NCBI GenBank assembly: GCA_905250025.1 | Contig: CAJNOJ010000160.1 | Location: 62,001-126,000, forward strand | Length of the DNA stretch: 64,000 nucleotides | Direction of reading: 5' to 3' | From: Adineta ricciae | Taxonomy: Eukaryota > Rotifera > Eurotatoria > Adinetida > Adinetidae | Position numbers and translations under genes: made by a program | The notes under the pieces: generated by a model | What the model was told of the DNA's origin: nothing | The model's database searches: none | Seen by the model: only the letters and a program-made list of their open reading frames with translations | In this document: piece after piece, positions 35,250 through 41,087 of the stretch | Layout of the letters: each line of letters starts with the position of its first letter | Position numbering within the stretch: the first letter of the stretch is position 1

Positions 35250-35736
35250 AAACAATTACAGTAGGTGTTTTCTACTTATCACCAATGACGTCTGACAAAA
35301 CTAAAAAAATAAATGAAGACATATGTAAGTATTTTTTCTTCTACATTAGCGAGAACACTATATAATACGAGAGTTTTCAACAGTGTAGAGATCATTTTTC
35401 TCTGAGAGAAAGTCCAAGTAAGTCAATATTTTTTCGACTGTCAAACAGAAAAATGACTTTATTGAGTTTTTATCTAATAAGAAGTTAACTGTTCTCTTAA
35501 TTAAAAGCACTTACTCAAATACGACAATAACAACATCTTGGTAACGCACGAACTCAATATCATTCAGGGAATTCAAGCACTTAGCTACATTAAATTGTAT
35601 ATAAGTCTGTTCATGTTCATCATTTTGTTCACAGATGCGTTCGAGAGTGTTAGCATTTTATTTCTTAACAACCTCCTCCGTATAACGTGTATTTTAGATC
35701 TCTAGTTAGCATTTTAATTTTCTAAATCGACATCAA

Positions 35737-36289
35737 ATGGCATCCATCACAACCTCTCTCTTAATTTTAACCATCTCATTGGGTAAGTTTTCATTTTCGA
35801 AGATCTATGATAAAATATTTCGAATGAATTTCTTTAGCTATTCTCAGCATTCAGTTTACCAACTGTGCTCCAGTTAATTCCGACGTGCCGAATGCAATTG
35901 AAACTGTTATGAATGCAGATCAAAGCGATTCATTGAAACACAATGAACCTGTTGGAAGAGCTCCTTTGACCAAACGAGATTATCCAATGGAAGGGATCAT
36001 GCTAGGTAGACGCGAATATCCAATGGAAGGGATCATGCTAGGCAGACGAGAATATCCAATGGAAGGCATTTTACTTGGAAAACGTGACTATCCAACTGAA
36101 GGTATTCTTCTCGGTAAACGTGAATATCCAATGGAAGGGATCATGTTAGGCAGACGAGAATATCCGACGGAAGGCATTTTACTTGGAAAACGCGAATACC
36201 CGACTGAAGGGATTCTTCTAGGTAAACGTAATGTGCGATTTTCTAAACCCAAGTCATCTGGAATGGCTCATCATGGTTTCAATACTTAA
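35737..36289 (+). CDS. Neuropeptide precursor with seven amidated repeat peptides
   Basis: Two exons (35737-35782 and 35838-36289, intron 55 bp) encode 165 residues. The signal peptide is ITTSLLILTISLAILSIQF, ending at TNCAPV. A spacer ends in the dibasic site LTKR. Seven perfect 12-residue units follow without linkers, each a nonapeptide plus Gly plus a dibasic pair: DYPMEGIMLGRR, EYPMEGIMLGRR, EYPMEGILLGKR, DYPTEGILLGKR, EYPMEGIMLGRR, EYPTEGILLGKR and EYPTEGILLGKR. A short tail (NVRFSKPKSS...) ends the protein. Gly before KR/RR is the classic amidation and prohormone-convertase signal, so the products should be (D/E)YP(M/T)EGI(M/L)L-amides. I do not recognise this consensus in any neuropeptide family. 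The signal peptide, cleavage sites and tandem near-identical copies make a secreted peptide precursor the best reading. Confidence 0.9.
35978..36229 (+). repeat. Seven tandem 36-bp units in the neuropeptide gene
   Basis: Exact 36-bp periodicity: units begin at 35978, 36014, 36050, 36086, 36122, 36158 and 36194. Units 1, 2 and 5 are the IMLGRR type. Units 3, 4, 6 and 7 are the ILLGKR type. Synonymous differences between units (for example CTTGGAAAA versus CTCGGTAAA) show they are not a recent collapse artefact. The mixed order suggests duplication of multi-unit blocks. Confidence 0.95.
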
Positions 36290-36751
36290 ACATGAGATTT
36301 TTCATATGATACACTTTTATTATCACAACTATTCGTCTATCAATCATACGTTTCTGTATATGAACAAACCTTTCAATAAAATCTGATCGTCAATAAAACA
36401 AATCTAGCATCATGTCATCATTGCTTCGATTTCGTTTTTTCCTGATTTTTTTCTTATTCAATAAAATTTGAAAGAATTACAGAATTCATAAACGTGATAG
36501 GAGCACATTTGTAACAGTCGTTTTGAATAAAAGAAGAAACGATCAAGTTGTTATTAGTTTGTTTCTTTTATTGATTTTTGAATAAAATGATAACATGGAA
36601 AAAGAAAGGACAAGACAACTATTGTTTTTACAATAGAAGAATGAACAGAAAGACGATAACGTACAGAGAGACACTGAAAATATGAATTTATACGTGCAAA
36701 GAAAATAGTCGTTCGATGAAGGTCTCTATTTGATACAGCAGAAAAACATTT
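36290..36751. other. Intergenic stretch between convergent genes
   Basis: AT-rich, with AATAAA-like signals downstream of the neuropeptide stop (about 36376 and 36391). No gene seen. Confidence 0.6.
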
Positions 36752-38625
<1,874 letters not shown>

Positions 38626-39202
38626 TCTGAAATAATGTTAACAAAGAAGTAACTGAAAATAAAGATTAAGCCGATAAAATTGTGTAGTCAAAGATGAGTA
38701 AGAGCAACTTGAAAATTATCTAGTGTGATGATGACGATATAAGAAAAACAAAAACGAGATGTTTTGTTTGTTAACGTGCGTCAATCAAGTCAAAATAGAA
38801 AGAATATGGCACGGAATGATTCATCATATCAGCAACATCCATCCTGTCGTTTATCTCGAGTTCACAAGTAGACGAATAAAAAATTAACTAATTGAATATC
38901 GATAGAAAGAATATTTTTCGTAAGATTGAACGTTGGTGTAACAATAAAATATTCGATGGCGTCGACATTGTCCTCATTTCGACACGACTCACTAGATGGC
39001 AGCACTTGTCATATTTTAAGTCATTGTTTATAAATAAATACAAGAATCAGCTGTGCAATTTACTCGCCCAAACACTATGAGAACGACTGGGCAACTCAAA
39101 AACTTTTAACAAGCAATAAAATATAGACATTGAGGTTTATTATCAAAGTAATCAAAACAAAAACAAAAATGTACACTATATCAACTTTAAAGTCATTGCT
39201 TT
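38626..39202. other. Spacer between the tandem VPS4 copies
   Basis: About 580 bases, AT-rich; should contain the promoter of copy A. No other feature seen. Confidence 0.55.

Positions 39203-41087
<1,885 letters not shown>

Follow-up and report, generated by a model that had tools for sequence, protein, structure and literature searches.

The gene at positions 35737-36289 (+) of the window, by which we mean the whole 64,000-nucleotide stretch of Adineta ricciae DNA analyzed here, carries seven nearly identical tandem units, and it raises the question of what kind of product is made from them and whether that product belongs to a described family. We consider it highly probable that the gene encodes a multi-copy precursor of secreted, amidated regulatory peptides, and that it is a member of a rotifer family that has two bdelloid lineages and probably reaches the Brachionus-type precursors.

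Gene layout and predicted peptides

The precursor gene has two exons and a product of 165 amino acids, and the splice model and the translation returned exactly the limits that had been given in an earlier, sequence-only reading. Exon 1 (35737..35782, 46 nt, + strand, as are all features of this gene) contains the start of the predicted signal peptide, MASITTSLLILTISL plus one nucleotide. It is followed by a GT-AG intron of phase 1 (35783..35837, 55 nt) that lies within the signal-peptide coding region, and by exon 2, which includes the stop codon (35838-36289). The remainder of the putative signal peptide (35838..35866) extends to ...SIQFTNC|APV, a cleavage point predicted by the -3,-1 rule. 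The N-terminus of the protein is hydrophobic (MASITTSLLILTISLAILSIQFTNC) and relatives have similar leaders, consistent with a signal peptide. In the translation, the pro-region APVNSDVPNAIETVMNADQSDSLKHNEPVGRAPLTKR (35867..35977) ends in LTKR and leads into seven 12-codon units without linkers (35978..36229), a non-amidated C-terminal tail of 19 residues, NVRFSKPKSSGMAHHGFNT (36230..36286), and the stop codon TAA (36287..36289). Sequence matches outside the coding region include a TATA-box-like TATATAA (35598..35604) and two AATAAA polyadenylation-like signals at 36375 and 36392 (36375..36397). TATATAA is found no more than 300 bases 5' of the start codon in three of the four A. ricciae genes described below (also at 941 in L002 and at 1167 in L003; L004 is without it). 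Scans of the whole window for tRNA genes and Rfam families found nothing.

Each unit is exactly 36 bp long and follows the consensus [DE]YP[MT]EGI[ML]LG(K/R)R, and the order along the gene is DYPMEGIMLGRR, EYPMEGIMLGRR, EYPMEGILLGKR, DYPTEGILLGKR, EYPMEGIMLGRR, EYPTEGILLGKR, EYPTEGILLGKR. Tandem Repeats Finder reported a period of 36 with 7.1 copies, which, together with the translation, bears out the earlier description of an exact 36-bp periodicity and seven linker-free units. The leader, the KR, the G-K/R-R repeats and the intron of that description were likewise found, the intron being placed in the leader, and the same layout recurs in relatives. All seven units end in G-[KR]-R, preceded in every case by a nine-residue core with Pro at position 3 and Glu at position 5, and KR stands before the first unit. 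The number of peptide variants, put at three or four in the sequence-only reading, has to be raised, since five distinct nonapeptide amides are predicted: DYPMEGIMLa, EYPMEGIMLa (two copies), EYPMEGILLa, DYPTEGILLa and EYPTEGILLa (two copies). All seven nonapeptides carry two acidic residues and lack basic residues. Pairwise comparison of the seven units showed 171 base differences, 125 of which fall at third codon positions; this bias indicates that the peptide sequence is under constraint.

In the processing scheme that we propose, the signal peptide would be removed, a proprotein convertase would cut after KR or RR, a carboxypeptidase would trim the basic residues, and an amidating enzyme would convert the terminal Gly. 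The products would be seven amidated nonapeptides with five different sequences, [DE]YP[MT]EGI[ML]L-NH2, and they would be stored in neurosecretory granules and act through a G-protein-coupled receptor. The genome encodes amidating-monooxygenase-like and furin-like stretches. The exon-sized pieces on C94 and C371 matched peptidylglycine amidating monooxygenase chains in 13 of 13 solved-structure matches each (best 5e-15 and 9.6e-19), and the best of the 13 P-domain matches, again an exon-sized piece, on C9, matched furin best (3e-17). The strongest of the 16 genomic PF03712 matches, on C18 (5.7e-55), was rejected as an amidating enzyme, being a relative of dopamine-beta-hydroxylase instead (3.7e-103).

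Paralogues and the bdelloid family

A search of the 130-Mb genome (1033 contigs) of A. ricciae, a bdelloid rotifer, with the repeat regions identified four loci, on C160 (the window), C20, C39 and C2. The window gene is one of four in the genome and part of a family, which lay beyond the view of the sequence-only reading. Three minus-strand matches were discarded as reverse frames of the same family loci, and a match on C7 (E 0.005, 24% identity), where only 100 bases of the locus were read, was left out. The phase-1 intron inside the leader is present in all four genes (the window gene, L002, L003 and L004). Among A. ricciae database proteins, P0065 matches the spliced C2 product (L004) residue for residue, and the spliced C39 product (L003) is included in P0082, which indicates that both paralogues are spliced at the equivalent intron. 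The C2 copy (L004, C2:1261231-1261386) has four units, one of which is decayed (NYLAERNLSGKH) and lies between intact units, which points to a relaxed constraint on individual repeats. In the C39 copy there are four nonapeptide units, and the protein ends at ...EAVLLG, as does the A. ricciae protein P0077.

The four loci form two pairs with shared flanks. The window and C2 loci have a VPS4-like neighbor in common, and the flanks of C20 and C39 are similar to each other; when the 9.9-kb piece of C2 was compared by blastn with those of C20 and C39, nothing was found at 1e-4. Bdelloid genomes are degenerate tetraploid, and this pairing is what would be expected if two genes were each kept in two homoeologous copies. 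The neighbor in the window (36753..38546, - strand) has an AAA domain and an MIT match below the Pfam cut-off, a combination that we take to be VPS4-like, and its counterpart flanks the C2 copy. Two stretches of the window, 36753-38546 and 39202-40660 (both - strand), align at 68-69% to one and the same VPS4-like region of the C2 piece, so that the VPS4-like gene seems to be tandemly duplicated beside the peptide gene.

The sequence-only reading had proposed a database search for relatives. The search with the window precursor returned 71 proteins at E<=1, and a lineage-B profile search, in which scoring was confined to the 7,995 candidates with the most words in common, returned 102. The union of the bdelloid-type proteins comprises 104 (P0001-P0104). 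An organism is named for 23 of them, and all 23 are bdelloid (Rotaria, Adineta, Didymodactylos); a functional name is attached to none of the 104. Three of the 102 profile matches were set apart: P0105 (mayfly), P0106, which is counted with the Brachionus-type set below, and P0107 (E 0.32), which was excluded because it is a repeat that lacks the precursor layout. P0071 (E 0.076) and the fragment P0101 were retained. The window gene's own protein was absent from the 71 matches, the highest identity being 77% across 44% of the query. As the database does contain the paralogues from C2 and C39, the window gene may lack public annotation.

Two lineages can be distinguished in this set. Lineage A, to which the window and C2 genes belong, encodes YPxEGILL-amide peptides, and lineage B, with the C20 and C39 genes, encodes [RD]LPxEAVLL or LPSESILL-amide peptides. 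A text pattern divided the 104 proteins into 49 A and 55 B, a division in which A includes at least two evident misassignments, P0076 and P0101. Alignment of the two lineages by hhalign gave 2.9e-27; the profiles were built from 13 proteins plus L002 and L003 (A1), from 15 of the 48 Brachionus-type proteins described below (A2) and from 17 lineage-A proteins (A3). Lineage-B precursors often have one longer N-terminal peptide, for example TFSNSDIPDGYVGIML-amide, and the motif IP[DE]GYVGIML occurs in the longer first peptide of 20 of the 104 bdelloid-type proteins. Lineage-B precursors end in ...LLGK or ...GKRR (...VLLG in L003), as expected if the terminal Gly is the amide donor. A tail that starts with N-x-RF (or N-x-x-RF) after the last dibasic site was found in 27 of the 104 proteins. 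Gly does not follow RF in the window tail, NVRFSKP, or in any of these 27 tails, as it would in an RFamide. The non-amidated N-x-RF tail of the window gene (36230-36286) might itself be a bioactive peptide.

Four of the relatives (P0005, P0006, P0040 and P0043) run straight across the intron position, which suggests that they are transcript assemblies or cDNA; P0003, P0015 and P0022 enter intron-like sequence. The processing layout is common to the bdelloid relatives, and on the evidence of these sequences the interpretation of the gene as an amidated regulatory-peptide precursor, already put forward in the sequence-only reading, is well supported.

Probable reach to Brachionus-type precursors

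The weak profile match P0106 (4.1e-5) led to a set of 48 proteins (P0106 and P0108-P0154) with ALPFETLNYGKR-type units, which read xLPFETLNYGKR. The sole member named to an organism is P0133, from Brachionus calyciflorus. By E-value the link to these proteins is weak, because the mayfly GSEFLGKR precursor P0105, which served as a control, outscored P0106 in the same profile search (2.5e-6). Alignment of the bdelloid with the Brachionus-type profile by hhalign gave 8.1e-13 and 2.4e-12, values that are not to be taken at face value because the control reached 1.2e-8.

The core statistics are restricted to cores of nine residues, which make up 393 of the 651 pattern matches among bdelloid-type proteins and 157 of the 322 among Brachionus-type proteins (overlapping readings inflate these totals). 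Pro was found at position 3 in 366 and 154 of these cores, and Glu at position 5 in 375 and 143, respectively. The column order was equaled or exceeded by 1,667 of 362,880 permutations, computed on 147 + 62 distinct nine-residue cores chosen by their length. Most Brachionus-type proteins have a final AYIPIDGYIMGKR-type peptide (a loose pattern matches 33 of the 48), and the likeness of this second peptide to the bdelloid one reached its observed score in 5 of 500 shuffles, in a comparison of 6 bdelloid and 20 Brachionus-type peptides that were picked by pattern and include a few off-type ones. When P0133 was compared with the 130-Mb genome at E<=1, only the four family loci were returned, with best values per locus from 4.7e-6 (C20) to 0.26 (C2). 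The control P0105 reached one of the four (C39, at 8.5e-5) plus two unrelated places, on C9 and C474. Neither of these is a family member: the C9 match (L030) is a Thr/Gly-rich repeat protein, and the C474 match contains 9 stops.

The Brachionus-type proteins resemble the bdelloid precursors in that nine residues is the commonest core length before GKR, with Pro at 3 and Glu at 5, and in a second amidated peptide, YIPIDGYIM-amide for example, which ends in IPxDGYIM and resembles bdelloid SDIPDGYVGIML. They differ in a C-terminal NY rather than LL, in a Cys-containing N-terminal domain that is present in the longer members and was seen in none of the bdelloid precursors, and in the position of the second peptide, which is at the C-terminus in the Brachionus-type proteins and at the N-terminus in the bdelloid ones. 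Taken as sequence comparisons, these results make homology between the bdelloid and Brachionus-type precursors probable. With similar, moderately strong confidence we propose a rotifer-wide (possibly gnathiferan) neuropeptide family, in which xLPxE nonapeptide amides would be encoded together with an IPxDGY..IM(L)-amide. Such a family would predate the split between bdelloids and monogononts, would have given rise in bdelloids, by duplication, to YPTEGILL and LPNEAILL genes that were kept in both subgenomes, and would have its own rotifer receptor.

Known families, other readings and significance

Several described families were considered as possible homes for the gene. Myomodulins end in ...ML-R-L-amide (RL-amide); the window peptides share the hydrophobic ...L-amide with them but lack RL-amide, and the units end in GI(M/L)L with no Arg within the peptide, in keeping with the judgment of the sequence-only reading that a likeness to myomodulins was insufficient. 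Tachykinins end in FxGLM-amide or FxGxR-amide, which the lineage-B YVGIML-amide superficially recalls (FVGLM-amide); membership was rejected, as the defining motif is absent from the window units and the long lineage-B peptide ends in YVGIML. EFLamides end in ...EFL-amide, a motif that is likewise absent from the units; the GSEFLGKR precursor was a profile match but reaches a single family locus, and this assignment was also rejected.

The precursor is like multi-copy amidated precursors in general, with a putative signal peptide and a spacer ahead of head-to-tail copies separated by G-K/R-R. It is unlike the named families in its core, [LY]PxE(G/A/S)(I/V)LL-amide, which has no Pfam match above cut-off. 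Pfam returned no family above cut-off for the four A. ricciae genes or for P0133, P0129, P0113, P0009, P0014, P0005 and P0105, and the window protein, searched against PDB sequences, had a single match, at a chance-level E of 1.3. The strings LPFETLNY, IPIDGYIM, PFETLNY, EYPTEGILL, RLPSESILL and PTEGILLG were in no paper of the literature searched, a negative result that has figures and supplements outside its scope and does not extend to PNEAILL, DGYVGIML, PNEAVLL, EGILLamide or MEGIML.

The passages available from De Oliveira et al. (2019; PMC6425005) report precursors of FMRFamide and of RYamide in seven phyla, Rotifera among them. They also report, from three Rotaria species, an "FCAP-related" precursor whose peptide has a fixed length of 11 residues and is present in 8, 8 and 9 copies. 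That precursor is multi-copy like ours; its reported peptide has 11 residues, compared with our 9-residue amides. The R. sordida lineage-B protein P0014 has 8 units, and LPNEAILLGKR counts 11 residues; judged from those passages, the "FCAP-related" Rotaria precursor may therefore be the lineage-B sister gene. The description of the precursor as unrecognised, made in the sequence-only reading, holds in that there is no Pfam match above cut-off, no PDB match beyond chance and no functional name among the database relatives, and is qualified by this possible sister gene. Published FCAPs read GLDSLGGFQVHGGW (PMC8735849, in the portion available). They matched none of the 154 proteins collected (best E 0.9), and against the genome at E<=10 they gave one match, at E 0.22. 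Membership in the FCAPs was rejected: peptides of the GLDSLGGFQVHG(G)W type are not present, and molluscan FCAPs share no motif with the window family.

These comparisons bear on the proposal that the gene is a divergent rotifer form of a known neuropeptide family (FCAP, EFLamide, tachykinin or myomodulin). The naming of the 8-9-copy Rotaria precursor, the 8 units of P0014 and the profile match of the mayfly precursor with its hit on C39 are in its favor, but the failure of FCAPs to match any family protein and the scattered genomic matches of the mayfly control make it a rather unlikely explanation. Less probable still is the reading that the product is a structural secreted protein built of repeats, or that the frame has stayed open by chance. 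Slippage can generate an exact period of 36 bp, which counts for such an origin; against it stand the third-position bias, the G-[KR]-R ending of every unit and the recurrence of the unit in bdelloid proteins of other genera, and because of this bias and recurrence we do not regard the repeat as a product of chance.

A more substantial alternative, although still an unlikely one, is that the gene encodes non-neuronal secreted peptides (of a gland, the gut or a surface secretion, or antimicrobial ones) that use the same processing route. In its favor, these convertase and amidation signals are shared by glandular peptides, and sequence alone carries no cell-type information. However, the nonapeptides are short and acidic, unlike typical cationic antimicrobial peptides, and the units are nearly invariant, as for a receptor ligand. 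For the regulatory-peptide precursor that we prefer, we infer neuronal expression, processing and a receptor of the window peptides. The family is conserved in bdelloid rotifers and is apparently undescribed, new though of a known kind.

Few spiralian branches have been sampled as little for neuropeptides as the gnathiferans, the rotifers and their relatives. In the sections available from Thiel et al. (2021; PMC8557429), a survey of gnathiferan neuropeptides is called the next frontier, and the one study that included bdelloids, that of De Oliveira et al. (2019), is said to have found very few precursors. The family described here offers EYPTEGILL-NH2, DLPNEAILL-NH2 and ALPFETLNY-NH2 for receptor deorphanisation, antibodies and assays of rotifer behavior, and it opens a way to test how neuropeptides evolve where a lineage keeps duplicated copies.
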